DNA of 64,000 nt, from contig CAJHZI010000263.1 in the NCBI GenBank assembly GCA_905160935.1, positions 566,001-630,000 of the forward strand, in the 5' to 3' direction. Below, in pieces: positions 1 through 24,853 of this stretch. The position numbers were made by a program, and so were the translations under genes. Every line of letters starts with the position of its first letter. Positions within the stretch are counted from its first letter, which is position 1. The stretch comes from Enchytraeus crypticus. Its lineage: Eukaryota > Annelida > Clitellata > Enchytraeida > Enchytraeidae. The notes under the pieces were generated by a model that had not been told where the DNA came from, ran no database searches, and saw nothing but the letters and a program-made list of their open reading frames with translations.

Positions 1-12
1 TGTTTATACTGT

Positions 13-1126
13 TGTCAAGGTAGGAGTAGAGATAATACTAATTATTACAATATACTCCACAATGACCTTTGTACTTTACTAGCACAGGGCAAGTTTCTTA
101 CCCTGCAGGCCTATTGTTCCGTGCCTGGGTCTGTGGCTGGAGTGAACACGAGTGTTGGGACTTAGAGAGTTGGCCGCAAGCGAGGAGCTTTGATTTTGTT
201 TTGTTGATAAACTTTAGTTTTCAGATTTAAGATAAATCTTATTAGACGTTATATTTTTCGCTAGTGACTATTTTATTACAGTGTACATTTATTTGGACTA
301 GGTATCGATCCACATGAGACAGTGAGGTTATATCGGATTGTATGTTAAGAAAGGCCTAGGAAGTGTTAGACTCATTTAGAGGGGAAAGTCCTATGAATAG
401 GTAACCCCTGAGTGGTGCTTATTGTGGTTTATTAGAAACTGCCAGTGAAGATAACAGGACGTTAAACGGCCATAGGGAACTGAGGGTTCTAGGGTCGTGC
501 GTTGCTGATAGTTACTTCGAGAAGGTCCGAAGTTGAGTTGGGTATTTTGAACTCAAGGAAGTTGTGATAGACTTGTGTCATTACATTAAGAGAGGATCAT
601 AGGGTTTGAGGCTGTAGTCATTAGGTATACCTTTATGGAAGAAGTGGGGACGTTGAATAGGAACTAGTTTGCCTTTATGTTCTGATGAGATAGTATTTGG
701 TGACAAGTGTTGTGATTTCTCTATAACTAAGTACTTCTCAACCTGTTTGTAGTCAGGTATTTAATTAGTAGTATTTTCGGTTCTGGCATTTTAGTCTGTA
801 TATTATTAAGTTATTTTCAACTCTATTATTAATATTTGATTATTAGATTTAATTCCGTTATTTATCATATAAGGACTATTTTCAGTTTCTTGTAATATAT
901 TATTTTGGTATATTGTGTTTGAGTAAAATAAAATATAATTGAAGTGAACTAATTACACTTCATTTATAATACATTACCTATGCGTCTGTTATAATTTAAC
1001 TGTAAGTAGAAATTACAAATGGAAAGTAGTTATCTACTATTATACATCATTAACATTAAGTTTAGAGCTTTAGAATTTATGAACCTGGTCCAGGCTAGGG
1101 TTCACCCTTAGAACCCTTCCCTGACA
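13..1126 (+). repeat. Left (5') LTR
   Basis: This copy of the long terminal repeat runs from TGTCAAGG to CCCTGACA, with the canonical TG...CA ends. It should hold the element's promoter and polyadenylation signals; I could not place the transcription start by eye. Compared with the right LTR I see two substitutions (near 295 and 328) and one single-base gap (near 503). Confidence 0.95.
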
Positions 1127-1132
1127 TAAATC

Positions 1133-1147
1133 TGGTGCCCAGACCCG
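1133..1147 (+). other. Primer-binding site
   Basis: TGGTGCCCAGACCCG starts six bases after the left LTR. It is complementary to a tRNA 3' end finishing in CCA, as expected for the minus-strand primer. The tRNA identity was not determined. From 1148 to 1792 is an untranslated leader in which I recognise nothing. Confidence 0.8.
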
Positions 1148-1792
1148 TTTTGTTTCAGATAGCGTTATCTTGATTAATTAGATAGTAGTATTTTTGATCT
1201 ATTAGAGTGTCCATAATTCATTTAATTTGCGTTATAAGTGTAACGATTGCTGGTTTAAGCTCGAGTATAGCGTAATGGACTTGGTGAGTCACAGGAGTAT
1301 TAGGCCGTGTGACTGGTGAACTGTGAACAACTTAGCTACGCACTCTGCCCGGCAGCTAGACAGTTAACCGCTGTTGTTGCTGGCACGTTGTAAATATTTA
1401 TTTTGGAGGGTGCGAAGAAATATTTCGGGTATTGATTAATGAAATTTAGTGATTGTATTAATATTGTCTTAGTATTTTACGTACTAATAATTCTGAATAT
1501 GTAAGTACACATGGAAACAGAGTTGTGTTGAGTGTACAGGTATATTTATCAAGTGGATATATATTACTATAGCGTTTCTACGATAGTATTTAAGTGGGTT
1601 AAAACCTCCTCTACACACCTGGGTTTAGTGGTTACTACTCCTGCAAGAATTTGAAAGCTCGAGTTCGTCGGGAAATTCCTGATTCCTTCTTTAGCGGATA
1701 TCAACACCAGTTTCTGTTTCCTCGTTTGGTGTAGTCAACGTCTGTTTGGTGAGTTTATCTATCACTTTCTACTGACTTATATTACTTTCAAC

Positions 1793-4700
1793 ATGGCGGA
1801 AAGTAAGAGAACTATAGAGATTGATTGGAAGAAAGTTCAACGCAACTTATGGTCTTCTCGTCATACTGTGTTAAGACATGAGTTAGTAATGTGTCAAGAC
1901 AAATTCAGTGCGGAGCAAATAGATTGCATGTCAGATGAGGAGACAGCTCATCATATTTTGAATCTTCGACGTCTATGCTCCACTGAAAAAGCAGTATTGA
2001 AAATGGTGTCTAATTTTCAATCCACTCCATTCGTACCGGATTCTGACTATGATAAGTACAGATTTAGTAAGAGCAAAAGCACTCCATCCACTCCAGTCGA
2101 TGCAGATGTACAATTCAGGTTTCCTGTAGCTAGTGAGATCATTGTTGTAAAATGCTCTGGATCTGTGTTGTCTGGGGAAGTTCAGACTCGTGATGTTATT
2201 ACCGAGTCAGGCTTATCTCAAGGGACGACAGATTCCACTGGAGCTTCGTTATCCTACTCTCAGACTCCCATGTTCTCAGCTCATCAGCCCATTTTCTCTA
2301 CCAGATCTCAACAACCAGTTGCTACGTCTCACTTACCCGTTTATCAAGTTCCCACTACGATGACTCAGGCATCTCCGTCTAATCCTATGCAAAATCCTCA
2401 GGATCCTTTAACAGTCATGTTTCAGATGATGATGTGGAAGGAAGAACAGAGAGATAAAGAAAGATCAGAGCAGGAAAGAATACGAAAAGAAGAAAGACAA
2501 GCAGAGATAGAAGACCGTAGAAGAAGAGAAGAGTACGAGATGAGACTTTTAAGAGAAGAAAGAGAAGAAAGAGAGAAAATTCGTCGAGAAGACATTGAAA
2601 GACAGGATAAGATTAGAGAAGCAGAAGAAGCTCAAAGGCATAGAGATAAAGTTAATGCTGCTATCTTAGAAGATAAAAAGTTAGAGGCTAAGTTAGAGAA
2701 AGAAAATAGAAAGAAAGAAAATGATATGTTAATAAGTGCTAGACTAAAAAGAGCTACGGATGCCACGAGAGGATCCTTGTATCCAATGCCAAGCGACCCC
2801 ATCGAGGTAGTTCCATATTTTAATCAGATCGAACGCATCTTTGATCAATGTAGTGTAGATAAGGATTTGCGAATCAATCTTCTCTGTCCATATTTAACAG
2901 ATGGTGCGAGAAAAGCAGTGAATAATATTTCTGCAGCAGAAGCGAATGATTATGACGCTTGGAAAACAGTTATACTGCGAAATTATAAGTTGACTGCAAC
3001 CGCTTACAGAGGACAATTTACATCAGCTACTAGAAATGAAGGCGAAAGTTGTACTCAATTTACTACTAGATTACGAGCATTTTTGTCCTACTATCTTGCT
3101 GCTAGAAATGTTAGTAGTTTTGATGATCTAGTTGAGCTAGTTCTGGCAGATAGGCTGCGCGACTCTCTGTACACGTCTTCTAGGTTCATGATTAATGATA
3201 AAGAGCAGGACACTTGGTTAAAACCTGATAATATGGCTCACGATGTAGACTTATTTGAATCGTCTCGTGGATATATCTATAAAGCGAAGAAGGAGATTAA
3301 GGAATTTAAAGACAAAGTGAGATGGGTTACAGAGTCTCAGGATGCTAAAGCTAACAATAATTTCAGCGAGAACAGTGACGATTGGAGACAGCGGATTATG
3401 TGTTTTAACTGCTCTCAGCGTGGACACATTGCGAAAGACTGCAAGAAATTTAATAGTGCGGATACACATTCCTTAAAGCAGGATCATAACAATTCAGAGA
3501 GTAGATCTGATCCTTTCTGCTTCTTTTGTCAGATTAGAGGTCATCATACAAAGGTCTGTAAAAAGAGACCTACATTTTCAAATGAAACGGAAGCATGTTA
3601 CCTCTGTGGTAAAACTAATCATATTGCTAAGAATTGCATGAAGCTGAAAAATGAAAAAGATCAGTTAAAGAAAGTACATAGAGTTACCCTAATGGAACCA
3701 GTTGAAGTAAGCTTAGACAAGTTTATCCTTCCTGGTGGTGATCACCTGTATGAGTCATCGGATGTTATTCTGCAGAAAGGGTTGATTAGTCTAGCAGGTG
3801 TCATATCAGAGTTTCTGTGTGACTCCGGTACACAGATAAGTGTGATTAACAGTAGCATGTTACCTGGAGGTTACCTGAATGATAGATCGACAGGTAAATC
3901 ATTATGTCTCAAGAGTGCTTGGGGGGATATTGCTCAAGCTACAGTTATAACTGTACCAGCGAATTTAATATTAGATAAAACAGAAGCGAAACCTGATGTT
4001 ATGCTTTGTTGCGCTGTGACGGATAGGCTTGTAGAGAACGTTGCATTGTTGACAACAGAAGACATCAAAGTCTTGCAAGAGGCTGCAATTCATAGACTAC
4101 CGAATACCGAATTGATTACCAGTCCTCATACTCATCATACCGATCAACGCATAGAAGAGAAAAGTATTAAGCGATCAGGAAGATCCGTCGGGATTCCTAT
4201 ATTCAAACCTTCTACTCTACCAGATCTTTTGAAGTATGATGGAGAACCAGTAGAAGAGTTTCACAAGTCACAAAGAACAAAGATGGCGGTTTTAGCGAAA
4301 GGTAAAGAAGCGGTCCACGACGATCAGCTCGATGGTGAGCAGAGGGGCGATCAAGCCATGAGCGACGGGAAAGAGAGAGATGAAGCCAGTGATGTAGAAG
4401 AAGATCAGTCCGCTGATTTCGGGGAGCAAGCCGAAGGAACTGTCGCAGTCAGCAGCAATGCAGCAGCTGCAGCGAGTCAGGGTGACCAGCAGTCACCGGC
4501 CCAGCAGCAGCCACAGCAGAAGCAGCAGTTCAGTATTTGGGGCAGGATCAAGACCTTGCTGATCAGAGTATTCATCATCTACATGATCATCAGCTTCCTG
4601 TGTCGTGCTCAGACACTCAATGCACCAGAAGCTGGAGGCCAGAGGTCAACTGGCAGTAGGATTGCCAACTCTCATGCCAGTAATATCTTCTCGAGGGGTA

Positions 4701-5062
4701 CTCGTCTGGACCTGTACATGTACATATCGGAGAAGCTGGAATATGGAGACTGGACTAGTGGAACTGGTGGAGATGGAATATTTCTTAGATCTTCACAGAT
4801 TCCTATATCTGAGGAAGTGCAGAACAACGGAGAGATATACTTGCACGTCGAAGTCGTAAAGTCGGGTCTGTCACCAAATCCTCAAGATAAAGATCGTTAC
4901 AACAAGAGATTTACCATCTACAAGTCTAGAGAGTTGATGAGAATGAAGACGAGTCGTTACTATAAGATGAAGAACCTGCTGACTGGAATGTCTCAAGTGC
5001 AGGCTAATCTACTGAGAGAAATCGGTTCATCATATAGCCGGTGCTCAAAACAGTGCGGATGA
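1793..5062 (+). CDS. Gag-protease-CLPTM1 fusion polyprotein
   Basis: The 1089-aa frame is uninterrupted. Residues ~213-314 are a charged Arg/Glu/Lys coiled coil. Residues ~323-513 form a capsid region resembling the SCAN-like capsids of Gypsy-group (Gmr1-type) elements, including a DYDAWKTVILRNYKL stretch. Three CCHC zinc knuckles follow at 537-550, 576-589 and 602-615 (C-x2-C-x4-H-x4-C), the usual RNA-packaging nucleocapsid. An aspartic-protease active site Asp-Ser-Gly lies at 677-679 in a hydrophobic strand context. From Met 831 the sequence changes to a CLPTM1 N-terminus with a membrane segment at ~921-937, ending in a short unrelated tail after ~1079. The start at 1793 (ACATGGCGG context) is the first ATG of the frame after the leader. 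The Gypsy assignment comes from the Gag alone, since no polymerase is present. The intact frame and near-identical LTRs suggest it can still be translated. Confidence 0.93.
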   Translation: MAESKRTIEIDWKKVQRNLWSSRHTVLRHELVMCQDKFSAEQIDCMSDEETAHHILNLRRLCSTEKAVLKMVSNFQSTPFVPDSDYDKYRFSKSKSTPSTPVDADVQFRFPVASEIIVVKCSGSVLSGEVQTRDVITESGLSQGTTDSTGASLSYSQTPMFSAHQPIFSTRSQQPVATSHLPVYQVPTTMTQASPSNPMQNPQDPLTVMFQMMMWKEEQRDKERSEQERIRKEERQAEIEDRRRREEYEMRLLREEREEREKIRREDIERQDKIREAEEAQRHRDKVNAAILEDKKLEAKLEKENRKKENDMLISARLKRATDATRGSLYPMPSDPIEVVPYFNQIERIFDQCSVDKDLRINLLCPYLTDGARKAVNNISAAEANDYDAWKTVILRNYKLTATAYRGQFTSATRNEGESCTQFTTRLRAFLSYYLAARNVSSFDDLVELVLADRLRDSLYTSSRFMINDKEQDTWLKPDNMAHDVDLFESSRGYIYKAKKEIKEFKDKVRWVTESQDAKANNNFSENSDDWRQRIMCFNCSQRGHIAKDCKKFNSADTHSLKQDHNNSESRSDPFCFFCQIRGHHTKVCKKRPTFSNETEACYLCGKTNHIAKNCMKLKNEKDQLKKVHRVTLMEPVEVSLDKFILPGGDHLYESSDVILQKGLISLAGVISEFLCDSGTQISVINSSMLPGGYLNDRSTGKSLCLKSAWGDIAQATVITVPANLILDKTEAKPDVMLCCAVTDRLVENVALLTTEDIKVLQEAAIHRLPNTELITSPHTHHTDQRIEEKSIKRSGRSVGIPIFKPSTLPDLLKYDGEPVEEFHKSQRTKMAVLAKGKEAVHDDQLDGEQRGDQAMSDGKERDEASDVEEDQSADFGEQAEGTVAVSSNAAAAASQGDQQSPAQQQPQQKQQFSIWGRIKTLLIRVFIIYMIISFLCRAQTLNAPEAGGQRSTGSRIANSHASNIFSRGTRLDLYMYISEKLEYGDWTSGTGGDGIFLRSSQIPISEEVQNNGEIYLHVEVVKSGLSPNPQDKDRYNKRFTIYKSRELMRMKTSRYYKMKNLLTGMSQVQANLLREIGSSYSRCSKQCG
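4283..5025 (+). other. CLPTM1: Captured host CLPTM1 N-terminal coding segment inside the retroelement frame
   Basis: Residues 831 to ~1078 of the fusion match the CLPTM1 family in order: an acidic Gln-rich N-terminus, a membrane segment preceded by FSIWGRIKT and containing RVFIIYMIISF, the luminal sequences YISE and YGDWTSG (984-990), QNNGEIYLHV, KSGLSPNP and finally KNLLTG (1060-1065). The segment opens at an in-frame ATG in a strong host-like context (AAAGATGGCGG) and has no introns over ~740 bp, although animal CLPTM1 genes are multi-exon. This fits capture from spliced mRNA. Base composition shifts to CAG/CTG-rich codons relative to the AT-rich gag. CLPTM1 is an ER multi-pass protein that restrains GABA-A receptor forward traffic in mammals. 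Only the first membrane segment and part of the luminal region are present, so normal function is not expected. The 3' junction is placed by loss of similarity and is uncertain by ~20 bp. Confidence 0.88.
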
Positions 5063-5410
5063 CTGTCTTTCACGGTGTGTAGAGTGAGTCGAGATGGTAG
5101 TGGTAAGGAAGCGTTTAGATTGCGTATAAAAGGTAAATTAAATATTAAAGTTAATTCATACTAGATGTATATGAAGATGCATCAGTATGAGAGTCCGTGG
5201 TACTCTATCGATAGGACTATTAGGGATAGCAAATGCCTATATATATGGTGTATATATTGTTTGTACTCGTTTGATCATACCACGAATGTATTTGCTAGCA
5301 TAGTTTTGTTAAGCATCATTAAATTTCGATGAGAATGATACTGGTTAGATTATTATCTCTATCCTTGAGTATCGCTTCTACATTATCGAGTTCTTTTGTC
5401 TCGAAGATGC

Positions 5411-5425
5411 AGAAGCTGGGGGAGG
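5411..5425 (+). other. Polypurine tract
   Basis: AGAAGCTGGGGGAGG abuts the right LTR and is the expected plus-strand primer. Between the stop codon at 5062 and this tract are ~350 bases with no long frame; no remnant of a polymerase or envelope is visible there. Confidence 0.75.
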
Positions 5426-6540
5426 TGTCAAGGTAGGAGTAGAGATAATACTAATTATTACAATATACTCCACAATGACCTTTGTACTTTACTAGCACAG
5501 GGCAAGTTTCTTACCCTGCAGGCCTATTGTTCCGTGCCTGGGTCTGTGGCTGGAGTGAACACGAGTGTTGGGACTTAGAGAGTTGGCCGCAAGCGAGGAG
5601 CTTTGATTTTGTTTTGTTGATAAACTTTAGTTTTCAGATTTAAGATAAATCTTATTAGACGTTATATTTTTCGCTAGTGACTATTTTATTACAGTGTACA
5701 TTTATTTTGACTAGGTATCGATCCACATGAGACAGTAAGGTTATATCGGATTGTATGTTAAGAAAGGCCTAGGAAGTGTTAGACTCATTTAGAGGGGAAA
5801 GTCCTATGAATAGGTAACCCCTGAGTGGTGCTTATTGTGGTTTATTAGAAACTGCCAGTGAAGATAACAGGACGTTAAACGGCCATAGGGAACTGAGGGT
5901 TCTAGGGTCGTGCGTTTGCTGATAGTTACTTCGAGAAGGTCCGAAGTTGAGTTGGGTATTTTGAACTCAAGGAAGTTGTGATAGACTTGTGTCATTACAT
6001 TAAGAGAGGATCATAGGGTTTGAGGCTGTAGTCATTAGGTATACCTTTATGGAAGAAGTGGGGACGTTGAATAGGAACTAGTTTGCCTTTATGTTCTGAT
6101 GAGATAGTATTTGGTGACAAGTGTTGTGATTTCTCTATAACTAAGTACTTCTCAACCTGTTTGTAGTCAGGTATTTAATTAGTAGTATTTTCGGTTCTGG
6201 CATTTTAGTCTGTATATTATTAAGTTATTTTCAACTCTATTATTAATATTTGATTATTAGATTTAATTCCGTTATTTATCATATAAGGACTATTTTCAGT
6301 TTCTTGTAATATATTATTTTGGTATATTGTGTTTGAGTAAAATAAAATATAATTGAAGTGAACTAATTACACTTCATTTATAATACATTACCTATGCGTC
6401 TGTTATAATTTAACTGTAAGTAGAAATTACAAATGGAAAGTAGTTATCTACTATTATACATCATTAACATTAAGTTTAGAGCTTTAGAATTTATGAACCT
6501 GGTCCAGGCTAGGGTTCACCCTTAGAACCCTTCCCTGACA
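5426..6540 (+). repeat. Right (3') LTR
   Basis: Same sequence as 13-1126 apart from about three differences. It ends in CCCTGACA at 6540 and is followed by ACTGT, the second copy of the target-site duplication. Confidence 0.95.
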
Positions 6541-6704
6541 ACTGTCTTCAGTATTGATCTACTTATGTTGAACATGATATCGTTAACTTATTAAGTTTAG
6601 TTTAATAAAATTACTAGCAGTTAAATTCTATTAACCAACAAGTGTAGTTTAACAAAATAGAAATTAAAATTTATATAAAAAATTAGTAAATAATTAGAAT
6701 TTAG

Positions 6705-6924: not shown

Positions 6925-7166
6925 GTAAACACGCATTATATAGTGAAATAATTAACTATGTTGATATCTATCACTTTTAACACCACATGTTTTAACCGTT
7001 AGGCAATGTTGACCATTTTACGTGTAACCAGTCCAGTGAATGTCCGAGATTTTACTCTCAGATCAGCACGGCTGGGATTCGAACCTACGAGGGTTCAATT
7101 CACCTTAGGACCTGTCATTTAAAACTTCATGACATTACTCCTACGCTATTGAGACATTAAGACATG
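6925..7166 (-). mobile_element. SINE-B copy (tRNA-derived)
   Basis: Read on the minus strand it contains the B-box-like GGTTCGAATCCC of a Pol III promoter, then the conserved body (CTGATCTGAGAGTAAAATCT, CATTCACTGGACTGG) and a 3' part ending in GCGTGTTTAC. Other copies are at 16022, 24854 and 63240. It marks the outer end of the left arm of the large inverted duplication. Confidence 0.8.
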
Positions 7167-7229
7167 CTATTCTTTTGTAATTAATTAAATTAATTAATTA
7201 TTAATTTTGCAATTAATTAAACTTTGTAG

Positions 7230-8443
7230 AAGTCACGACAGAGCTCTGCCGGAGATACCCGCTCTCTCCTCCGTCATCACCTCGGCCACTGACGACGATG
7301 ATGAGGAAGAAAACGAAGGTCACTATGACTTCATTTCCAAGAAGGGTCGTCGTGGAAACGGTCTCCGTGCCACCCGAGACCCTACTCCGATGGTTTCCGT
7401 GGCAACTAACGGGTCTGTCCTGGCGGTCGTGCCACCAGCCGCAGGGCCGAGACGAATCCGTTGCCATGCCTATGAGAAAGTGGTCGGCGATCCGGATTCC
7501 GATTCTACTTATACCGGAGTAAGAGATGACCTTCCACCCGCTAACCTTCGTGACGAGGTCAGTTCTGCTGATATAGCTCCAGGAAGTGGAGACAGCAGTG
7601 AATTAACGGGCGGGGGTGAGAGGATCTATTCCGTGGTGGGGAGAGGTACAAACAAAGAGCCGGTGGCCGAGAGGATCTACTCCGTGGTAGGGGAGGGTTC
7701 GGGTGCTAGGAGAGTCCAGAATCAGAGCGGGGAGGGTGGATCGGTGATCATGCGACGTTTGGGGAGTAGCGGGAAGAAGTTACTAGTTGAAACAGGTAGA
7801 GACGTCGCGTCCGAACAACACAAGATCTCTTCCCCCGTCCCTCCCGCTGTTGTAGACAAGAAATTTGGTTTTCAGATTGATTCTTCGGACGAGGGAGCAG
7901 TGGGGGGGCAGTCCCCCTCGTCCCTTCAGCCCCCCAGATTTACCCACGAGGCTCTTAGCAGCAGCAGCCCCTCTCTGCCCCCGAGGAACGGTGAGGTGAG
8001 GGTCAGGATCAGCGACGGCAGCGCCGGGTCAGCGAGGCTAAGAGCTGACGGAAGCTCTCCACGCAGCAGTGCTGGGCTGGATGTCTCTGCAGGTGATGTC
8101 CTCCACCCAGCAGTGGCTCAAGGAAGATCAGACGAGAGGATCTGGAGCACAGAGATGTCCGGAATGGCTGGTGGTGGAGCTGCGACTGCCGGGTTTTCCG
8201 CAGGAGCGGGATTTTCTGCAGGTACGGGATTTCCCACAGTTCCGGGATTTCCCGCAGGTCCGGGATTTCCTGTGACAATTGGGTTTTCTGCAGGTAACAG
8301 CGTGGGATTTACCACAAATGGTGCCAGACTGCTGTGGAACGAGGCGGATCAGTTTCCGTTGATTGACGCTGATGACGCAGAGGCTGTGACTGAGAGAAGC
8401 AATATGGACACTGACAGCCTGCCTCTCGCTGCTCCATCGACTG
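7230..8443 (+). CDS. Tyrosine-motif scaffold protein, first visible exon
   Basis: The exon opens after the acceptor TTTGTAG at 7223-7229 in an AT-rich intron. It encodes RSHDRALPEIP, an acidic run, then GHYDFI, AYEKV, TYTGV and two copies of RIYSVVG: five Y-x-x-hydrophobic sites that read as SH2-docking motifs. RALPEIP followed ~25 residues later by a YxxI site resembles the vertebrate adaptor PAG1/Cbp (RELPRIPP then YEVL). The end has tandem GF(S/P)AG units. Candidate donors at 8221, 8257, 8293 and 8443 all leave phase 1, which agrees with the next exon. I extend to 8443 because coding-like composition continues that far, but 8293 (CAG|GTAACA) has the better consensus. Upstream exons, including any membrane anchor, are not in view. 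The PAG1 link is inference. Confidence 0.75.
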
Positions 8444-8638
8444 GTTCGTTGACTTCTCTTCAGCTGATATATATGAGAACATATAAGACACTTATATTCA
8501 AGTATATATGAGATTCCTATATATAAGTATATAGGGACTCTTATATATTAGTATATATAAGACTCATGTATATATATGTATATAGTATATATAAGACTTC
8601 TATATATATATATATATATATATATAGATATATATATA

Positions 8639-8687
<49 letters not shown>

Positions 8688-9305
8688 AACATATAAAACT
8701 CTTATATATAAGTATATATGAGACTCCTATAAGTATTTATAAGACTCCTCTAAATAAGAACATATTAGACTCTTATATGTTCTTACAGCTCTACAGTCAT
8801 TGTAGAGCTTTCTTTCTGGCTGGAGCCAGTGGCGAAGTCGGTAAGATACTCGGCCGCGGATTAGTATGTGCGGGGTTCAAATCCTGGTCTCTCCCGTCAC
8901 TGACATCGCTTTCAAGTGAGGTAACTAATGTTAACCGTAGCTTTTTTAGCTTTTTATAGTTATCATTTGTATGAAACTGTTAATAATTCCAGGAGCTCTA
9001 TTTAATGTAGACTCTCTACGACTCTCTAGTCGTTGAACAGCAGCTATTTGCTCATATTTATTGCAAGATATCGATTGTTACATGCAGATACTAATAGTTT
9101 ATTTAGTTTTTGATGGGTTGATTGATTGATTGGTTATTGATTGATTGAACACACTGTGTTTTAGTTTAAAATATTATTCGTTATATGCTTAGATTGATTT
9201 ATGAAGTTATTAATTGATTTCGTTATTGATGCCATTATTAGTTGATTTCGGTATTGATTCCATTATTGATTGATTGGTTGATTGATTGATTGATTGATTG
9301 ATCAG
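8444..9305 (+). other. Intron with TA microsatellite, SINE-A and GATT repeats
   Basis: 8500-8720 is a long TA/TATATAAG microsatellite. 8819-8957 is a SINE-A copy (plus strand) with GTGGCGAAGTCGG and the B box GGTTCAAATCC. 9110-9303 is mostly ATTG/GATT repeats that run up to the acceptor GATCAG. No exon is visible. Confidence 0.75.
8819..8957 (+). mobile_element. SINE-A copy (tRNA-derived)
   Basis: The head GCTGGAGCCAGTGGCGAAG carries an A-box-like stretch and GGGGTTCAAATCC is a good Pol III B box. The body continues CCCGTCACTGACATCGCTTT and ends in GTTAACCGTAGC. About ten other copies lie in this window, in both orientations. Confidence 0.85.
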
Positions 9306-9493
9306 CACCTGCGCGACGCGTGCCCGACTACACAAGCGTCAGTGCACGCGAGTCGTTAGATAATCTGCGGAGACGTCAGCGCGAGGAGATGAGAGAGAGG
9401 GGGGTGAGGGAGGGACTGGGGGCGGGACCTCTGTCTAGTCTACCCGACATACTGGAGGGCACCTACGACACCATCGACTACGACAAAGTCAGG
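9306..9493 (+). CDS. Tyrosine-motif scaffold protein, internal exon
   Basis: Acceptor GATCAG at 9300-9305, donor AGG|GTAGGA after 9493. The exon begins two bases into a codon, matching phase 1 of the preceding exon, and ends in phase 0, matching the next. It encodes VPDYTSV, a basic Arg/Glu stretch (RRRQREEMRER) and GTYDTIDYDKVR, giving three more Y-x-x-hydrophobic sites, two of them only four residues apart. GC content is far above the surrounding intron. The exon appears deleted from the inverted copy. Confidence 0.85.
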
Positions 9494-10166
9494 GTAGGAA
9501 GTCGTGACTGCTGAATTCTTTCCTTTATTCTTGAATTTGCTGTAATGATTGTTTTACCATTGGTAAATAATACTCGATATTATAATGCTACAAAAATTAA
9601 AAATTGGTACACAAATTTAAATGAATGGAAAAGTCTCAAATAGGGGATTGACGGATGATATGATGTGGGACAGAGGATTTGAGACAGTCTATTCGTATCC
9701 TGGCCGTAGTTAAACTGGGATTCAAAGGAAGATGATGATGATGATGATGTTGAATCGATATTATAATGACTAGTATGATTGGTGTATTTCAGAATTTGAA
9801 AAATAACAAGATATTTGTTGGAGAAAGAGAATTTTCTGTTGAAATTGTGTTGAAAATATGTTGCTGGTCTTGTTGCAGATATGTAGCTCTAATATTCATC
9901 AGTAGCATCTTCCCTTGAATCCCAGTTTAACTAGGGTCGGGATACGAATATACTGTCTCAAATCCTGTAGTATCTATTGTTCTATACTATTTAGTACAAT
10001 AAATAGAATCAATTGTGAATCATGTATTTGATCTCCAACTATTTGATCAGAGTGTACTAACTATTTATAACTTTTTGACATTTATAAATAGACCCATCTG
10101 ATACTGAACTGTTGTCTAATTAAGTGACCAATTGGCTGTTTGTTTGATTGACTGATTAATTGATTG

Positions 10167-10197
<31 letters not shown>

Positions 10198-10572
10198 AAT
10201 AGATGCTTTAATTGATTTGATTAATTGGTGAATTGATTTATTGATAAGTTATTGATTAAAGATTTATTTCATTGATTAGTTGATTCATTGAGTAATAGAT
10301 GCTTTGCTGAATAATTGATTTGATTGATTGATGAATTGATTGATATAATTTATTGATTAAAGATTTATTTCATAGTAATTGATTTGATTGATAGATGCTT
10401 TGCTAAGTAATTGATTCGATTGATGAATTGATTGATATATTTTAAAGATCTATATCATTGATTAATTAATTGATTGATTAATGGATTCTTTGCTGAGTAA
10501 CTGATAGGTGAATTGATTGAGTGATATAATTTATTGCTTCAAGATATATTTAATTGATTGATTGCGCTACAG
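9494..10572 (+). other. Intron with GAT-tailed repeat C and GATT arrays
   Basis: 9622-9752 is repeat C (plus), ending in (GAT)n. 9899-9966 is a partial minus-strand copy of the same family. 10130-10565 is dominated by GATT/AATTGATT arrays reaching the acceptor GCTACAG. No exon is seen. Confidence 0.7.
9622..9752 (+). mobile_element. Repeat C copy with (GAT)n tail
   Basis: GAATGGAAAAGTCTCAAATA, a GGGACAGAGGATTTGAGACA core and CTATTCGTATCC lead to TTAAACTGGGATTCAA and a (GAT)n tail. More than ten copies occur here, always with the tail at the same end, as in retroposed SINE-like or LINE 3' fragments. Confidence 0.7.
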
Positions 10573-10810
10573 ACCCCCGCTGGCTCTAATCTCCTCTCCG
10601 CCGACAACAACGTCTACAACAACGGCAGCGACCTCTACGCTGAGATAGGCACCGCCTCCTCTAACTCCGCCCGCAGCTCCACCTACGCTCGTGTCGGGAG
10701 CGTCACCGACACTGCAGTGCGGCCAACTCCACCGCCTGTCGACACGCTTCAGCAGATCACGCACGGGATTTCTGCAGGAGCTGGTAACACTGCTGCTTCT
10801 GCGGACATAG
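10573..10810 (+). CDS. Tyrosine-motif scaffold protein, internal exon
   Basis: Acceptor CTACAG before 10573 (phase 0) and donor ATAG|GTGTGA after 10810 (phase 1) fit both neighbours. It encodes TPAGSNLLSADNNVYNNG, DLYAEIG and STYARVGS, then a Pro-rich turn and HGISAGAG. DLYAEI and TYARV are strong SH2-type motifs; LYAT/YASV-style sites occur in PAG1 and related lymphocyte adaptors. A heavily mutated copy lies at 21860-22110 on the other strand. Confidence 0.85.
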
Positions 10811-11376
10811 GTGTGAAAATTATAACGTTGTTTACATTTCGATTGTTATCTAGTTTGTCTCTATCCGGTTTTGTGGTAGATCATCATCAAGTTATATAGA
10901 TTCACAGTGACTTGATATAGTGTCCATTGTATATTACTAACTATTCATGATATTCATATGTAAGGCTTATAAGTTTAAATGTACCCTAAGTATCAAAGGG
11001 GGCTGTCATGCACTGGCCGTGTGTGTCAGACCCCTGTGTATTGCAGTTTTATCGTAGTAGAAAATCTACTGTTATTAAGCTTAACTTAAGCTCAGACTTG
11101 TTTGCATACAGTTTGTTCTGTGCCATAAGAGGGTCATTCCTGCATCTTCTTCTTCCCTTTAATCCCAGTTTATCATGGGTCGGGATACAAATGGACCTTC
11201 TCTTCTCTTTGTCCCGCACCATATCAAAATCTCTTCCATTCGTTTTAGAAAATTTTGTAGCAGTTCATGGAGCCTAGGCTGCATCTAGGTGGTTAATCGA
11301 TTTCAAGAGTTGTTCTAGGGGTTTGTATTTTATTTTCAAAAACTGAAGTGGTTTCTTTATTTTGTGTTTGCACTAG
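10811..11376 (+). other. Intron with minus-strand repeat C
   Basis: 11141-11290 is a repeat C copy on the minus strand (CTTCTTCTTCCCTTTAATCC through to GGAGCCTAGG). The rest has no recognised feature. The acceptor TTTGCACTAG ends at 11376. Confidence 0.65.
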
Positions 11377-13097
11377 ATGACCTATTTGACCCGGGATATT
11401 CCAGATTGAACTCCCAGCGCCCTCTATCAGTTCAGCTGTCCTCCACAGCTGCTGCAGCAGCTACAGCAGCTGCTAGAAATCCAGCTGAAGGTCAATGGTC
11501 ACCGGTATACTCAAAGGTTTCGCGTAAAACCGTTCAGACTAATCGCAGCGATGACGGTGTGAGGAATTTCCCCGCCGGTGGGAATAGTAGAGAGGGAATT
11601 CCGCCTGTTAACGGGAATAGTGAAAAATCTGGAACCTTATCTGCAAGTCACAGTAGAAATACTAGTTCTACTGTTGGGAATGTCTCAGCTAATCACAGCA
11701 GAGTTTCTAGCGATGGTTTGAGGGGCGTGGCAGATGAGGATCAGCAGGTTTTGGCACAGAGCCAGAGAGCGGCTACTCACGGAAACATCTACGCCGAGGT
11801 GAACAAGGTCAAAACCCACAGACGCTCCGTGTCCAATGAACAGAACTGGGAGGCTGCGAGAAGTCGTGAGTATTCAGCACGCCCTCATGAATATTCAGCA
11901 CGCTCTCACGAATACTCATCACGCCCTCAGGAATATTCAGCACGCCCTCATGAATATTCACGCAGATATCACGAATATTCAGAACCTTCTGAAGTTAGCA
12001 GCATCCATGCCCGGCAGTCGATCGGTAATTCACTTTATTCCCCAGATGGAGCCAGGCAGGGCCAGGGGGCGGGGCTTGCTGTCACGCAGGCGGGGCCATC
12101 ACATGTGAATCAAACTCTCTCAGATGTCAATCACACCGGCGCTAGACCAAAAATCTCTCAGAACAATTCATCGGGTGTAAACGTGGCGTCTGACGAGTCA
12201 TCGATGAGACCCCGATATACGAACAGTAGGCGTGGCCACTATGATACGATAGACGACGTTCAGTCTGGTCGAAATACATACGACATCTACGATATGTGCG
12301 ACTCCTCCGATACGTACGATACAGTATCTGACTTGCCGAGCGGCTCAGTGTACGACGGGGATTTGACCTCTGACCTCTCACGTGACCCGAGGGTTCATCA
12401 GGCGGGCAGGAACCCTGCGGGCAGCCACAGCCTGGGCACGCCCTTCAGACGACCCCGCAAAGAACACATCTATGAACTCGTTGACGAGGCAGACGATATC
12501 GGTACAGAGAATTCTAGTCGCAGTAAAAACTGTTCTCGTAGAAATACTAGCGATCAGTCCAAAATCAGCTCTGCGTCTAACGGCGTGAGAAATAATCACG
12601 ATAATACTAACAGTGGCAGAGCGGCTAGTGGAATTTTTTCGAGCGGCGCAAGCAAAAGTAGAACTGGTGTTACGAATTCTACTGATGCCGTTTTGAGAGA
12701 GCATGGTAGCTCAGTTGGGAGCAAACATGACTCCGGTGAGCCCGTATGGTTGAGAGCAGAGAGTGTGGGGTTCAATTCCCAGCCTGGCACGACTAATTTA
12801 CATCCAGCTCATAATACTGCGGGCAGTGTTGTGACTGACGGTGCGAACAACTCAAATATCAGTATTACTAACAGCTTTGACTCTTTGAACCATTCTGTGG
12901 GTGCTTCAGGTGTAAATACAAACGTGTTGAACAGAACTGATCTTCAGTTCAGCGACGCTAGATGTTTCTCGGATAGAAGTGGGGATTCGGCGAGTAGAAT
13001 TCAGGCTTTGATGAGAAACGGCGACGTTAAATGTTCGTCAGGTCATCAGTCGGAGCGTAAAAGTGTTGATGATGAGCCGCTAACAACTGAATTGTGA
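11377..13097 (+). CDS. Tyrosine-motif scaffold protein, terminal exon
   Basis: The exon joins in phase 1 (last G of the previous exon plus AT gives Asp) and ends at the TGA at 13095-13097. It encodes ~573 aa, Ser/Asn/Arg-rich and predicted disordered, with DPGYSRL, SPVYSKV, GNIYAEV, GHYDTI, DTYDTV and HIYELV: six more Y-x-x-hydrophobic sites. A tandem array of about six 7-residue units of the type SARPHEY gives extra tyrosines (11870-11985). A tight cluster follows in which YDTI, YDIY, YDTV and SVYDG fall within ~50 residues. No kinase, SH2, SH3 or PDZ fold is visible, so it looks like a phosphorylation platform rather than an enzyme. Together the four exons give ~1119 residues. The last ~255 residues are duplicated exactly in the inverted copy. 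Confidence 0.85.
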
Positions 13098-14154
13098 CCG
13101 TTGCTTCCACTGTAGATAATTGAAATGTTTTATAACAGATCTGTAATTCATGTCTTGCTGGTGTTTATATTGTCGCGACTTTATTAAAGAACGTGCGACA
13201 TATTCTTGATTCGCTGTTTAATTATTGTACCGTTCTGTTTCTATGTAATTCAGTTGCTAATCCAAATTATGGTGTAGAATTGATAATATAGATGATATGG
13301 TGTGGGGCAGAGGGATTGAAGAAGGTCTATTCGTATCTCGATCCTAGTTAAATTTGGGATGTAAGGGAAGATGATGATGATGTAACTTTGATACAGTTTT
13401 GCTTTGTAGTGAATCGCGGCCAGAATCAGATGGCCCTGACTTGAGGTCCTATTTAACTAGATTTATTGACCATTTTTCATCTAACGACTGATCAATTGGT
13501 TCAACTGATTAATCAAAAATCATTAATCTTAACTACATGCATTGTGATTAAAATATTTATATTACAGGTGTGTATGTATTAAGGAACTGTTTTCAATTTT
13601 TAATTTTTACTTTTCTGTGTGATCATATTTTGCAAAATTCATTTATAGTTATCGGAGGACAGTCTTAGGTTCCTATTTCATGTTGTATAAATGATTAATG
13701 CTGAATTGTCTTCATTGCGTGCCTAATCTCTATTCAACTTTATAATCTTCTTTCCTTGCAGAAGCCTCTATATAGTCTTATTCACTTTATTAAACGTGGC
13801 ATACCGGGCTGTATTTAAACGTTTGCTAGTTATATTTAAAATCAAAGATACCAGCAGAGTTTTATAATAGCTGAGTTTTTAATAGCTGAGTTTTATCATA
13901 ATTAACTTTATTACTATTGCACTGAATGGCTATGGGATATAATTTGTTACCATTTACTTGATTTCTATTGTAATATTCATGCTGTTCTCTCTCTTGCTCT
14001 TAGTGTCTTGCTCTTTTTGACTGATGAGTGGTAGGTTCAAGGATCATATTTCACTGTTTTCTCTCCCTCTAAGATACACCTCATTGTCCTACAAGTTGAT
14101 CCCATCATGCTTTGATCAGCAACCCTGAAAGCTATGGCTACACTAAGGATTAAC
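13098..14154 (+). other. 3' flank of scaffold gene, with repeat C
   Basis: Probably includes the 3' UTR (ATTAAAG near 13183, CATTTAATAA-like signals not resolved). 13296-13382 is a repeat C copy ending in (GAT)n. Around 14022 is a repeat E fragment (GGTAGGTTCAAGGATCATAT). No other exon is seen. Confidence 0.5.
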
Positions 14155-14335
14155 TATATTGAGGGAAGAGTGAAAGGGAAAATGGTTAGAGGATCACCGA
14201 GGTTTGGGATGATGGAATATTTGATAACTAATTCCTAAATTTGTATGAAGAGGAAGGCAGAGGGTAGAAATAGGTGGAGGAGTTATATGCTGTGGACCTG
14301 CCAATAGGGAGTGCACTAAGAGAGAGAGAGAGAGC
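14155..14335 (+). pseudogene. LINE endonuclease-reverse transcriptase C-terminal remnant
   Basis: Translating in pieces gives RVKGKMVRGSPRFGMM, then MKRKAEGRNRWRSYM. This is the tail typical of non-LTR retrotransposon ORF2 proteins (GKR-RGRPR followed by A-DR--WR). Internal stops and a frameshift make it dead. A better copy is at 45470-45690, and the mirror image is at 18750-18930. Confidence 0.6.
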
Positions 14336-14371
14336 TTGTGACTAATTTAACCGTTGAGGTTATTTTTTGTG

Positions 14372-14848
14372 GTATTGTGAGTGCTCGCTAAACTATGCAC
14401 GTGTGGGATTATGAGTGCTCACTAAGCTATGCACGTGTGGGATTGTGAGTGCTTACTAAGCTATGCACGTGTGGGATTGTGAGTGCTCACTAAGCTGTGC
14501 GCGTGTGGGATTGTGAGTGCTCACTAAGCTATGCACGTGTGGGATTGTGAGTGCTTACTAAGCTATGCACGTGTGGGATTGTGAGTGCTCACTAAGCTGT
14601 GCGCGTGTGGGATTGTGAGTGCTCACTAAGCTATGCACGTGTGGGATTGTGAGTGCTCACTAAGCTGTGCACGTGTGGGATTGTGAGTGCTCATTAAGCT
14701 GTGCACGTGTGGGATTGTGAGTGCTCACTAAGCTATGCTCGTGTGGGATTATGAGTGCTCACTAAGCTATGCACGTGTGGGGTTGTGAGTGCTCACTAAG
14801 CTATGCACGTGTGGGATTGTGAGTGCTCACTAAGCTATGCACTGTACT
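14372..14848 (+). repeat. 34-bp minisatellite, 14 units
   Basis: The unit is GTGAGTGCTCACTAAGCTAT plus GCACGTGTGGGATT, with scattered variants (CTTACT, GTGCGCG, GCTCGTG). The mirrored array at 18240-18715 has the same unit number and the same order of variants. 14849-15619 holds no recognised feature. Confidence 0.9.
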
Positions 14849-16021
14849 ATGCAAGACTGTTTCATGTTCCTTTTTGTATTTTTGTATTACTACTATATTG
14901 AACCGTACTCAATTAGAAATGTTATTTTTAAAATTTATATTAATCTTTTTATCTAGTCCTAGAGCGGTTGTCAGGCCCCTAGCATAAATTCCACGCACTG
15001 TCAGATAGCTGTTATCATAATTATCTCATCACATACGAACTTATCAAGCCGACCACTTTACAAAAAGTTTGCAATTTTCTCTCAATGATTAAAACAATAC
15101 TTTGCTTAAAATGTTGATTTAAACGGAAGAGTTTACTTGCCAGTTACTGTTAGTCGTTTTCTAAGAGATACATACAGTTTTCTGTTAGTATATTTGCAGT
15201 TCTTTGATGGTATAATTGAGATGTAGTAAGATCATGTCATATGTACGCTGTCAAATAGAAATCGTGATTTCACTTCACTGTATGTATTACCTGTTGTATC
15301 CATTTCCTGCTTGTATTAGCAATTAATTTAATTTCCAAACTCAGTATTCACTTTCGTATACCGTATTTATTTTTTAATGGACCCTGAGCTAATATCTGCC
15401 GCATTATCAAATCGAACATAGTTATGTTTGTTATTTTCATCAACTGAAGACGATGTCGGGTGCTTTCTGGATCTAATATTATGCCTTCAGTAACAAAATT
15501 CAGTCTATTTAGGATAAGTTTTGTGGATAATTATAATTGATTTGCATAGTAGTTAATTGAATTATTCTCCGGAATTAATGTCAGATGATTGCAAGGGAAT
15601 GGTATTATTATATTTTATTTTGTCTCCTGTGTTTATTTTTATAACTTCGGTTGCTAGGTGACGGAGAGATATTTTCTCTTGTTCTTATGTATGGCAAAGG
15701 TCTATTGAGCTGCGTGATAGTCCAGAGAATATGCCTACTAGTTAAGTTTCTTCAGACTGTCTAGAGCTCCATTCCAGTACTATTAATTCCAGATCAGTTT
15801 AAGCGTTTTGAATTTTTGGACGGTCGTAAAAATATTATTTAATCTTGACAAATGTAATCATGTATATATTAGCAATAATTTCAAGAAGTGCTAATATTTT
15901 CGTATGTTTGTATAAGCAGTTGCTTTTACTGTCTTTATGTATAATTTATGCTAATTTATGTGAGTGCCTGAGCAAATATGTCTAGTTTGCGCATGGTAAT
16001 GTGCTATAATAAAATAATACC

Positions 16022-16263
16022 ATGTCTTAATGTCTTAAAAGCGTATGGGTAGCGTCATGAAGTTTTAAATGACAGATCCTGAAGTGCATTGAATCCTCGT
16101 GGGTTCGAATCCCAGCCGCGCTGATCTGAGAGTAAAATCTCGAATATTCACTGGACTGGTTATACGGAGAATGGTCTAAATTGCCTAACGGTTTAAACAT
16201 GTGATATTAAAAGTGAGAGATATCAACAAAGTTGATCATTTCACTATAATGCGTGTTTACTTT
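16022..16263 (+). mobile_element. SINE-B copy
   Basis: Full-length copy with GTCATGAAGTTTTAAATGAC, the B box GGTTCGAATCCCAGCC, the CTGAGAGTAAAATCTCG body and the 3' end ATAATGCGTGTTTAC. Confidence 0.85.
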
Positions 16264-17435: not shown

Positions 17436-17469
17436 TATTATTTTGGGTAATCTATTACCCAAAATAATA
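17436..17469. repeat. Near-perfect palindrome at arm junction
   Basis: A 16-bp stem (TATTATTTTGGGTAAT and its complement) closes on a 2-base loop CT at 17452-17453. It straddles the inner start of the right arm at 17466. Confidence 0.85.
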
Positions 17470-18239
17470 AAATATAATAATACCATTCCCTTGCAATCAT
17501 CTGACATTAATTCCGGAGAATAATTCAATTAACTACTATGCAAATCAATTATAATTATCCACAAAACTTATCCTAAATAGACTGAATTTTGTTACTGAAG
17601 GCATAATATTAGATCCAGAAAGCACCCGACATCGTCTTCAGTTGATGAAAATAACAAACATAACTATGTTCGATTTGATAATGCGGCAGATATTAGCTCA
17701 GGGTCCATTAAAAAATAAATACGGTATACGAAAGTGAATACTGAGTTTGGAAATTAAATTAATTGCTAATACAAGCAGGAAATGGATACAACAGGTAATA
17801 CATACAGTGAAGTGAAATCACGATTTCTATTTGACAGCGTACATATGACATGATCTTACTACATCTCAATTATACCATCAAAGAACTGCAAATATACTAA
17901 CAGAAAACTGTATGTATCTCTTAGAAAACGACTAACAGTAACTGGCAAGTAAACTCTTCCGTTTAAATCAACATTTTAAGCAAAGTATTGTTTTAATCAT
18001 TGAGAGAAAATTGCAAACTTTTTGTAAAGTGGTCGGCTTGATAAGTTCGTATGTGATGAGATAATTATGATAACAGCTATCTGACAGTGCGTGGAATTTA
18101 TGCTAGGGGCCTGACAACCGCTCTAGGACTAGATAAAAAGATTAATATAAATTTTAAAAATAACATTTCTAATTGAGTACGGTTCAATATAGTAGTAATA
18201 CAAAAATACAAAAAGGAACATGAAACAGTCTTGCATAGT

Positions 18240-18715
18240 ACAGTGCATAGCTTAGTGAGCACTCACAATCCCACACGTGCATAGCTTAGTGAGCACTCAC
18301 AACCCCACACGTGCATAGCTTAGTGAGCACTCATAATCCCACACGAGCATAGCTTAGTGAGCACTCACAATCCCACACGTGCACAGCTTAATGAGCACTC
18401 ACAATCCCACACGTGCACAGCTTAGTGAGCACTCACAATCCCACACGTGCATAGCTTAGTGAGCACTCACAATCCCACACGCGCACAGCTTAGTGAGCAC
18501 TCACAATCCCACACGTGCATAGCTTAGTAAGCACTCACAATCCCACACGTGCATAGCTTAGTGAGCACTCACAATCCCACACGCGCACAGCTTAGTGAGC
18601 ACTCACAATCCCACACGTGCATAGCTTAGTAAGCACTCACAATCCCACACGTGCATAGCTTAGTGAGCACTCATAATCCCACACGTGCATAGTTTAGCGA
18701 GCACTCACAATACCA
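18240..18715 (-). repeat. Mirror copy of the 34-bp minisatellite
   Basis: Fourteen units, the reverse complement of 14372-14848, with variant units in the same order. The adjoining 18750-18930 is the mirror of the LINE remnant, and 19703-19790 the mirror of repeat C. Confidence 0.9.
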
Positions 18716-19987
18716 CAAAAAATAACCTCAACGGTTAAATTAGTCACAAGCTCTCTCTCTCTCTCTTAGTGCACTCCCTATTGGCAGGTCCACAGCATAT
18801 AACTCCTCCACCTATTTCTACCCTCTGCCTTCCTCTTCATACAAATTTAGGAATTAGTTATCAAATATTCCATCATCCCAAACCTCGGTGATCCTCTAAC
18901 CATTTTCCCTTTCACTCTTCCCTCAATATAGTTAATCCTTAGTGTAGCCATAGCTTTCAGGGTTGCTGATCAAAGCATGATGGGATCAACTTGTAGGACA
19001 ATGAGGTGTATCTTAGAGGGAGAGAAAACAGTGAAATATGATCCTTGAACCTACCACTCATCAGTCAAAAAGAGCAAGACACTAAGAGCAAGAGAGAGAA
19101 CAGCATGAATATTACAATAGAAATCAAGTAAATGGTAACAAATTATATCCCATAGCCATTCAGTGCAATAGTAATAAAGTTAATTATGATAAAACTCAGC
19201 TATTAAAAACTCAGCTATTATAAAACTCTGCTGGTATCTTTGATTTTAAATATAACTAGCAAACGTTTAAATACAGCCCGGTATGCCACGTTTAATAAAG
19301 TGAATAAGACTATATAGAGGCTTCTGCAAGGAAAGAAGATTATAAAGTTGAATAGAGATTAGGCACGCAATGAAGACAATTCAGCATTAATCATTTATAC
19401 AACATGAAATAGGAACCTAAGACTGTCCTCCGATAACTATAAATGAATTTTGCAAAATATGATCACACAGAAAAGTAAAAATTAAAAATTGAAAACAGTT
19501 CCTTAATACATACACACCTGTAATATAAATATTTTAATCACAATGCATGTAGTTAAGATTAATGATTTTTGATTAATCAGTTGAACCAATTGATCAGTCG
19601 TTAGATGAAAAATGGTCAATAAATCTAGTTAAATAGGACCTCAAGTCAGGGCCATCTGATTCTGGCCGCGATTCACTACAAAGCAAAACTGTATCAAAGT
19701 TACATCATCATCATCTTCCCTTACATCCCAAATTTAACTAGGATCGAGATACGAATAGACCTTCTTCAATCCCTCTGCCCCACACCATATCATCTATATT
19801 ATCAATTCTACACCATAATTTGGATTAGCAACTGAATTACATAGAAACAGAACGGTACAATAATTAAACAGCGAATCAAGAATATGTCGCACGTTCTTTA
19901 ATAAAGTCGCGACAATATAAACACCAGCAAGACATGAATTACAGATCTGTTATAAAACATTTCAATTATCTACAGTGGAAGCAACGG

Positions 19988-20755
19988 TCACAATTCAGTT
20001 GTTAGCGGCTCATCATCAACACTTTTACGCTCCGACTGATGACCTGACGAACATTTAACGTCGCCGTTTCTCATCAAAGCCTGAATTCTACTCGCCGAAT
20101 CCCCACTTCTATCCGAGAAACATCTAGCGTCGCTGAACTGAAGATCAGTTCTGTTCAACACGTTTGTATTTACACCTGAAGCACCCACAGAATGGTTCAA
20201 AGAGTCAAAGCTGTTAGTAATACTGATATTTGAGTTGTTCGCACCGTCAGTCACAACACTGCCCGCAGTATTATGAGCTGGATGTAAATTAGTCGTGCCA
20301 GGCTGGGAATTGAACCCCACACTCTCTGCTCTCAACCATACGGGCTCACCGGAGTCATGTTTGCTCCCAACTGAGCTACCATGCTCTCTCAAAACGGCAT
20401 CAGTAGAATTCGTAACACCAGTTCTACTTTTGCTTGCGCCGCTCGAAAAAATTCCACTAGCCGCTCTGCCACTGTTAGTATTATCGTGATTATTTCTCAC
20501 GCCGTTAGACGCAGAGCTGATTTTGGACTGATCGCTAGTATTTCTACGAGAACAGTTTTTACTGCGACTAGAATTCTCTGTACCGATATCGTCTGCCTCG
20601 TCAACGAGTTCATAGATGTGTTCTTTGCGGGGTCGTCTGAAGGGCGTGCCCAGGCTGTGGCTGCCCGCAGGGTTCCTGCCCGCCTGATGAACCCTCGGGT
20701 CACGTGAGAGGTCAGAGGTCAAATCCCCGTCGTACACTGAGCCGCTCGGCAAGTC
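19988..20755 (-). pseudogene. Scaffold gene copy, 3' part of terminal exon
   Basis: 254 codons ending at the same stop are identical to the end of the left-arm gene, from DLPSGSVYDG onward. At 20755 the match stops: upstream sequence jumps to something like the earlier NTYD codons and then decays, so the copy has no intact 5' part. Confidence 0.85.
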
Positions 20756-21460
20756 ATATGTATTAGTATAGGGTGCACATATGTTGATTCTATGTATTTT
20801 TAGCTGATGTTATCGTAATTCCACAATACTGTTGTCGGGGTTCATGATGATTTCTAATTTAACATAATTGTTCTGAATATTTTTTCTAGAGTCGGTTTGA
20901 TTGAATTTAATATTTGATTCACATGTATGTGACGCCTGGGGCAAGGTTCCTGGCCCTCCATTCTATCTAAATAAAGTGAATTAGATCGACTGCCGTGGCA
21001 TGGATGTGCTAACTTCAGAAAGTTCTGAATTTGTGATACTCGTAATATTATAGGGGTGCTGAATATTCCTGAGGCGTATGTATTCTGCAGAGCGTTTATT
21101 CAGAGGGCGTGTGAATCTCAGACTTTAGCCTAGTTTGTTCTTGGACAGGAAGGTCAGTGGGTTTTGACTATGGCGTAATGCCGTGAGTAGTGCTACTGGC
21201 TGCTGTCAAAACCTGCTACTCATCTGAACTGCTCCCTCAAACCATCGCTCTCTGCATTAGCTGAGACATTAACTTATATTTCTACTTCTTAGATAAGGTT
21301 TTTTTCACTCTCCCGTTATAGGTCTTCCCTCTCTCTACCCACTCGGCGGGGAAATTCCTCAACTCTCCTCGATTAGTTCTCTTTTACGCGCCTTTGAGTA
21401 ACTACCATTCCTTCAGCTGGATTTTAGCAGTGCTGTAGAGCAGCTAGGAGCTGAACTGAT
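20756..21460 (-). pseudogene. Decayed 5' part of the terminal exon copy
   Basis: On the minus strand, islands align with the left exon: GAGGAATTTCCCCGCCG, CCTCAGGAATATTCAGCAC and CTTTCTGAAGTTAGCA. They are separated by deletions and substitutions, so no frame is kept. Fewer of the EYSA repeats are present than in the left gene. Confidence 0.75.
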
Positions 21461-21859
21461 TAACTAGAACATTATCATATTAGTTTTTGAAAATTACAGA
21501 TCTTGAAATCATTATCAGCCTAGGCTCCATGAATGCTACAAAATTTCTATGGAAGAGATTTTGATATGGTGCGGGATTCTTTGCAGGAATTACATGGCAC
21601 AGAACAAACTGTGCAGAGTCTGATCTTAGTTAAGCTTAAAACAAATTTGACTACTTTACTGCAATTACAAGTACAACACGGCGTGCAAACAGACCCCTTT
21701 GATACAGGGTCATTTAAACTCAAGCATATGAATATCATGAATATTAGTGTAATATACAATGGAACACTATATCAAGTCACTGGGTCTAGGAAACTTGATG
21801 ATTGATCTACCACAAAACCCATTTCATCTAGATAACAATCGAAAATAAACATTATAATT

Positions 21860-22110
21860 TTCACACCTATTCCGCCAGAACAGCATGTTAACAGCTCCTG
21901 CAAAATCCCGTTAGATCTGCTGAAGCGTGTCGACAAGGCAGAACGTGGAGTTTGGCCAGCAATGCAGTGTCGGTGGTCCCACACGAGCTCAGGTGTCAGC
22001 TAGAAGCACTTAGAGTATTGGTGCCTATCTCAAGCATAAGGTCGCTGCTTGTTCTAATCTTTTGTCGGCGGAGCTATTAGAGCCAGGCTTCTGGTAGCGC
22101 AATCAATATT
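21860..22110 (-). pseudogene. Decayed copy of the DLYAEI/TYARV exon
   Basis: Reading the minus strand, CCTGGCTCTAATAGCTCCGC, GAGATAGGCACC, GTCGACACGCTTCAGCAGAT and AATAGGTGTGAAAATTATAA match the intact exon at 10573-10810 in order. Numerous small indels and base changes destroy the frame. Confidence 0.8.
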
Positions 22111-23326: not shown

Positions 23327-23371
<45 letters not shown>

Positions 23372-24790: not shown

Positions 24791-24853
24791 CTACAAAGTT
24801 TAATTAATTGCAAAATTAATAATTAATTAATTTAATTAATTACAAAAGAATAG

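Follow-up and report, generated by a model that had tools for sequence, protein, structure and literature searches.

A young long terminal repeat retrotransposon of Enchytraeus crypticus with part of CLPTM1 in frame behind Gag and a protease-like stretch

How might a fragment of a host gene have come to stand in frame behind the Gag of a mobile element? The question arises from a 64,000-nucleotide stretch of the Enchytraeus crypticus genome (contig CAJHZI010000263.1, positions 566,001 to 630,000; here called the window), which near its left end holds a long terminal repeat (LTR) retrotransposon whose single 1089-residue frame passes from Gag and a protease-like stretch into a piece of CLPTM1. 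An earlier note on this DNA had described a young, Gypsy-type element with a primer site and a purine tract, in which a CLPTM1 fragment fused in frame to Gag and protease had replaced the polymerase. The analysis reported here upholds the young element and its fused frame, and suggests that the chimera probably arose by template switching onto CLPTM1 mRNA during reverse transcription.

Composition and age of the element

The element extends from position 13 to 6540 of the window and has paired LTRs, TG...CA ends and a 5-bp target-site duplication, with ACTGT on both sides (Table 1). The LTRs, which begin with TGTCAAGG and end with CCCTGACA, are unlike in 3 of 1115 aligned columns, owing to two substitutions and one 1-base indel (99.7% alike). 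At rates of 1e-9 to 1e-8 substitutions per site per year, two substitutions in 1114 sites correspond to an insertion about 0.09 to 0.9 million years ago, an age that applies to the present copy and says nothing on the date of the CLPTM1 capture. The near-identity of the LTRs and the perfect duplication indicate that the chimeric copy itself inserted by retrotransposition. The element is thus a young LTR retrotransposon, as had been claimed. Its primer binding site is a candidate by position, and the unbroken purine run preceding the 3′ LTR measures only 8 bases. The window contains no tRNA gene with which to compare the candidate primer site and no match to an Rfam family, and its comparison with itself (matches of at least 150 bp at E 1e-20) yielded no further LTR copy.

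Table 1. Parts of the chimeric element, with positions in the window
Feature	Position	Strand	Basis
Target-site duplication ACTGT, left copy	8-12	.	Sequence comparison
5′ LTR, 1114 bp, TG...CA ends	13-1126	+	LTR-LTR alignment
Candidate primer binding site, TGGTGCCCAGACCCG	1133-1147	+	Position, 6 bases after the 5′ LTR
Single 1089-residue frame: Gag, zinc knuckles, protease-like stretch, N-terminal piece of CLPTM1	1793-5062	+	
Gag: charged middle, capsid-like core, three zinc knuckles (3401-3637)	1793-3670	+	Pfam, protein relatives, motif reading
Protease-like stretch with DSGTQISV (DSG at 3821-3829)	3812-4075	+	P0008 match, sub-threshold RVP, motif
CLPTM1 piece, reaching the codon that corresponds to P0009 residue 222; 18 residues of relatives missing at 4729/4730	4283-5020	+	Profile and protein searches
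First transmembrane segment of CLPTM1, most hydrophobic stretch of the frame	4547-4603	+	
Remnant like an RNase H C-terminus, EKSVHHIAGAQNSADDCLSRCVE and stop	5016-5087 (23 residues in 5016-5084)	+	Frame one base on from the open frame
Short purine run, GGGGGAGG	5418-5425	+	Just before the 3′ LTR
3′ LTR, 1115 bp	5426-6540	+	LTR-LTR alignment
Target-site duplication ACTGT, right copy	6541-6545	.	Sequence comparison

The identity of the last part of the frame is clear from profile and protein searches alike. Within the translation of 4283-5062, residues 91-241 match the family PF05602 (E 4.5e-17; 62.5 bits against a cut-off of 22), covering positions 2-163 of the 434 in the profile. A protein search with the piece alone, in which longer proteins lay outside the candidate set, gave four relatives among 675 candidates: P0003, P0004 (named CLPTM1-like, Apostichopus japonicus), P0005 and P0006 (named CLPT1, bird). 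A second search, with the longer frame and a region limit, added one more among 319 candidates, the full-length CLPTM1 relative P0009 (E 1.7e-41; 46% identity, covering 89% of the searched region). Of the 155 residues that align with P0009 in the interval 86-244, 80 are identical. Viral contigs scanned with the CLPTM1 alignment, possibly without records from the window's own genome, gave 280 pattern matches and no confirmed relative. The possibility that this third part of the frame is an ordinary Env or accessory frame was ruled out by the profile and protein matches.

What the element carries is the N-terminal third of CLPTM1. Similarity ends at residue 222 of the 661 in P0009, and the C-terminal membrane segments that a full-length member possesses are not in the piece. 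The fusion to Gag and protease had been recognized correctly, as had the CLPTM1 likeness; its proposed end at 5025 had not, clear similarity stopping at the codon 5018-5020. The piece is open and uninterrupted over about 740 bp, in sense orientation, with element sequence on both sides of it within one LTR pair. Residues 108-125 of P0009 (18 residues, or 54 bases, in frame) have no counterpart at 4729-4730, and the other relatives keep most of them. The missing 54 bases may represent either a skipped exon or a deletion made during reverse transcription.

The part of the frame preceding CLPTM1 consists of Gag and a protease-like stretch. The C..C....H....C knuckle occurs three times, at frame residues 537, 576 and 602 (zf-CCHC, E 9.8e-11), and a single DSG at residue 677, where the RVP match is weak (E 0.18) and fails its own cut-off; no Pfam family was found in 1793-3340. 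A protein search with residues 250-830 of the Gag-protease part produced two relatives among the 7992 candidates scored, both from records carrying no name. One, P0007, is a 738-residue Gag relative (183 of 395 columns identical). The other, P0008, is a 963-residue frame (125 of 462 columns identical), with a second match around DSGTQISV (31 of 91). Scans of viral contigs with P0007 (19 pattern matches) and with the Gag alignment (28), and of prokaryotic genome contigs with the Gag alignment (78), confirmed no further relative, these scans possibly excluding records from the window's own genome. The reverse transcriptase by which membership of the Ty3/Gypsy clade is judged was not found by Pfam among the frames of the element. 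Its classification is therefore limited to the likeness of its Gag, and we call it Gypsy-like without filing it as a Ty3/Gypsy member, a narrower statement than that of the earlier note.

The polymerase region and the joins

Where clear CLPTM1 similarity stops, an RNase H-like tail begins at once. In the frame one base on, 23 residues followed by a stop resemble a retroelement RNase H at its C-terminus (H.I.G..N..AD..SR); the stretch overlaps the final 13 codons of the open frame. Its position directly after the piece implies that CLPTM1 sits where the polymerase would be. The proposal that the fragment replaced the polymerase is strengthened by this tail and, taken at face value, CLPTM1 would occupy the former polymerase place. 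When a 426-base stretch was simulated 20000 times with an order-1 Markov model, the full tail pattern appeared in 0 of the simulated sequences, a shorter one in 1 and the shortest in 24; none of the three occurs in the rest of the window in any of the six frames. These counts were made after the fact and serve as supporting evidence only.

The 3′ join can be placed within narrow limits. Clear CLPTM1 similarity ends after the dipeptide RE (residue 222 of P0009). The residues that follow, IGSSY against QNESSF in P0009, could be a last trace of it; the join thus probably falls within about 5019-5035. No poly(A) was seen there. On the 5′ side, protease similarity ends at 4075, an ATG stands at 4283, and aligned CLPTM1 similarity starts near 4514-4553. 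The assignment of the start to 4283 rests on this ATG and on a change in composition. Overall G+C is 0.40 in the 120-base window from 4180 and already 0.52 in the one from 4260; at third positions it is 0.33 in the Gag-protease part versus 0.53 in the CLPTM1 piece, blocks from 4343 on having 0.44-0.68 as opposed to 0.14-0.48 before. Position 4283 probably marks where the captured message begins at its 5′ side, which may include a short stretch of 5′ leader. CLPTM1 proper might start at a second ATG, at 4358, in which case 4283-4357 would be leader that is read through.

Origin of the chimera and fate of its product

According to a review (PMC5408686), cellular mRNA is packaged in particles, template switching takes place at microsimilarities and a limited part of the message is copied. 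When host mRNA is captured, internal coding domains are usually lost, leaving a provirus unable to replicate alone (PMC4299795). We infer a similar history here, and consider it probable that reverse transcription changed template twice, between packaged RNA of the element and CLPTM1 mRNA, and that helper enzymes then inserted the product. An LTR retrotransposon with Gypsy-like Gag would have packaged CLPTM1 mRNA alongside its own RNA. During minus-strand synthesis, reverse transcriptase would have copied the 3′ end of the element up to the last RNase H codons, switched onto the CLPTM1 mRNA in the middle of the coding region, proceeded to near the 5′ end of the message and then switched back onto the element RNA just past the protease. 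The product, with both LTRs, would have been inserted by enzymes from a helper copy. The anatomy fits capture of an mRNA because the ends of the element are intact, the message is in sense orientation and represented by its 5′ part, poly(A) is lacking and the polymerase has been lost. The copy is non-autonomous.

Several points weigh against this reconstruction. The evidence is confined to the window and the protein relatives. The RNase H pattern was a general one, loosened to fit after its first version had missed the tail, and the 23 residues have no match in Pfam or PDB. The 5′ join is not pinned, the interval from 4075 to about 4514-4553 aligning neither way, and overall G+C, having dropped again to 0.40-0.43 in the windows that start between 4700 and 4900, leaves the 3′ join unmarked. 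Furthermore, integrase is missing too. This requires either a second deletion or the order reported for Gmr1-like Ty3/Gypsy elements, where integrase precedes reverse transcriptase (PMC8220671, PMC2774666). In such elements RNase H would end pol, as the tail and stop suggest here, but both integrase and reverse transcriptase are absent from the present copy. With a stop rather than integrase after the RNase H-like tail, a Gmr1-like order would need only one continuous replacement.

The CLPTM1 piece might instead have been acquired as DNA: a retrocopy or a genomic exon piece would have entered the element through insertion or illegitimate recombination, and the resulting chimera would have retrotransposed later. 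An intronless CLPTM1 source is possible. A retrocopy made by a long interspersed element (LINE) is expected, however, to retain the 3′ end of the message and its poly(A), whereas here the 5′ part is retained and poly(A) is not seen; also, the polymerase region has been replaced rather than simply interrupted. We therefore regard a capture at the DNA level as unlikely. That the assembly created the chimera, by joining an LTR element to a transcript or gene of CLPTM1, deserves hardly any credence. The window does hold a large imperfect inverted repeat, a structure able to trouble assemblies, but this starts outside the element, at about 6937, and the piece is flanked by element sequence inside a near-identical LTR pair with a matching 5-bp duplication.

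A further alternative is that the capture is old and the copy belongs to an established non-autonomous family with many members, which has retained a membrane-anchored Gag-CLPTM1 protein as useful to, or acting on, the element. The 1089-codon frame is indeed unbroken, the fusion is in frame and the first transmembrane segment is retained. With only two substitutions in 1114 LTR sites, however, the open frame needs no selection to be explained. Of 39 columns that are otherwise invariant in CLPTM1, the piece differs at 7, against 5/37, 9/41, 5/37 and 5/37 for other members, in a comparison covering four of the five relatives (the bird record, P0006, which has a stretch that failed to align, was left out). 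Accelerated evolution, considered as a sign of old capture, was thus not seen, and the similar counts give no sign of long decay after capture; such ordinary departures are as in a recent capture, though also as in a constrained one. Against a useful product stand the 18 missing residues, which cover part of the second strand of the luminal region in the P0009 model, and the loss of that region's second half. The piece itself models poorly as well (mean pLDDT 44.2), an argument made weak by its five aligned rows, since such an alignment often gives a value of this kind. On balance we find an established family quite improbable.

Under capture from mRNA, which we prefer, any protein made from the fusion would be a Gag-protease that carries the CLPTM1 anchor while its luminal part is broken; most likely it is a functionless by-product. 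The P0009 model supports residues 101-190 best (10-residue blocks with pLDDT 52-88) and has strands at 99-107, 121-129, 143-150, 162-169, 188-193 and 196-201, with more, poorly supported, at 228-306. Both models are weak (P0009 has a mean pLDDT of 42.2 from 6 rows) and neither was used for a fold search. Among solved structures, the piece had one match, at E 0.074, taken as chance, and P0009 none. As residues 108-125 and everything after 222 are missing, the truncated piece is unlikely to form a folded luminal domain, and its transmembrane segment is likely the sole working feature, which makes a membrane-tethered Gag possible. CLPTM1 itself is reported to hold GABA-A receptors in the endoplasmic reticulum (PMC12068001). 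It is very improbable that the anchor serves a living non-autonomous family by tethering Gag-protease to that compartment, as an assembly route or as a trans-dominant brake on the helper. If it did, a host secretory-pathway protein would now be part of retrotransposon assembly, or the element would carry a brake on its own helper.

Known captures and the remainder of the window

Acute transforming retroviruses carry gag-onc fusions in which the polymerase is replaced, and depend on helpers. The present element is like them in having host coding sequence in frame with Gag in place of the polymerase; unlike them, it is an inserted genomic element with no sign of infectious virus or of a fusion acting on cells. 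LTR-mediated retroposition of host mRNA has been described in metazoans by Tan et al. (2016, Genome Research, as cited in PMC5408686 and PMC8232201). As in those cases, part of a host message is flanked by an LTR element, but the host gene here is CLPTM1, in frame behind Gag-protease. Crocodilian endogenous retroviruses have captured KIT-ligand and nectin3 (PMC4299795). These too are animal LTR retroelements with host mRNA-derived coding sequence, at the cost of a retroviral gene in the nectin3 case. As reported there, nectin3 replaces env, several insertions exist and purifying selection acts, whereas here it is the polymerase that has been replaced, by a truncated host part, in the one copy known. 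In maize, Bs1 likewise ties an LTR element to copies of host genes; unlike the present one, it is a plant element and involves three cellular genes (PMC5408686). Bdelloid elements carry other acquired frames (PMC5408684). No report of CLPTM1 capture by a retrotransposon or endogenous retrovirus was found in the openly licensed literature. The earlier note knew of no Gypsy-type animal element with a CLPTM1 fragment; the novelty so implied was overstated, host mRNA capture by animal LTR elements being already in print (PMC5408686, PMC8232201, PMC4299795), and the CLPTM1 case adds another example. Its interest is that a young, structurally complete LTR element would have given up its polymerase for a host message, and that the joins are narrow enough for template switching to be tested. 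Should there be further copies, the in-frame fusion to Gag would reveal whether such captures can turn into working elements.

Outside the element, the arms of the inverted repeat lie at 6937-15619 and 17466-25081. BLAST pairs 11461-15619 with 17466-21438 (94.4%) and 6937-8842 with 23191-25081 (97.4%), with stretches of 77-78% between them; two ungapped stretches, 3294 and 1697 nt long, show 99-100% complementarity on either side of a spacer of 1846 bases. The frames 7207-8511 and 23509-24813, one in each arm, have translations that look identical. Minisatellite arrays occupy 14266-14942 and 18143-18819 (34-base units, in opposite arms of the repeat), 27238-27866 (17-base unit) and 41664-42303 (16-base unit). 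An interspersed repeat of about 240 bp is present in both orientations at 6925-7176, 16011-16260, 24844-25081 and 63243-63483, copies sitting at the outer edges of the inverted repeat and in its spacer. It is perhaps a short interspersed element (SINE), since GGTTCGAATCCC in the first copy resembles a tRNA B-box. Finally, a 1053-codon frame at 32464-35625 on the minus strand, in which C2H2 zinc fingers (PF00096, E 4.3e-10) lie close to the end, is probably a host transcription-factor gene.

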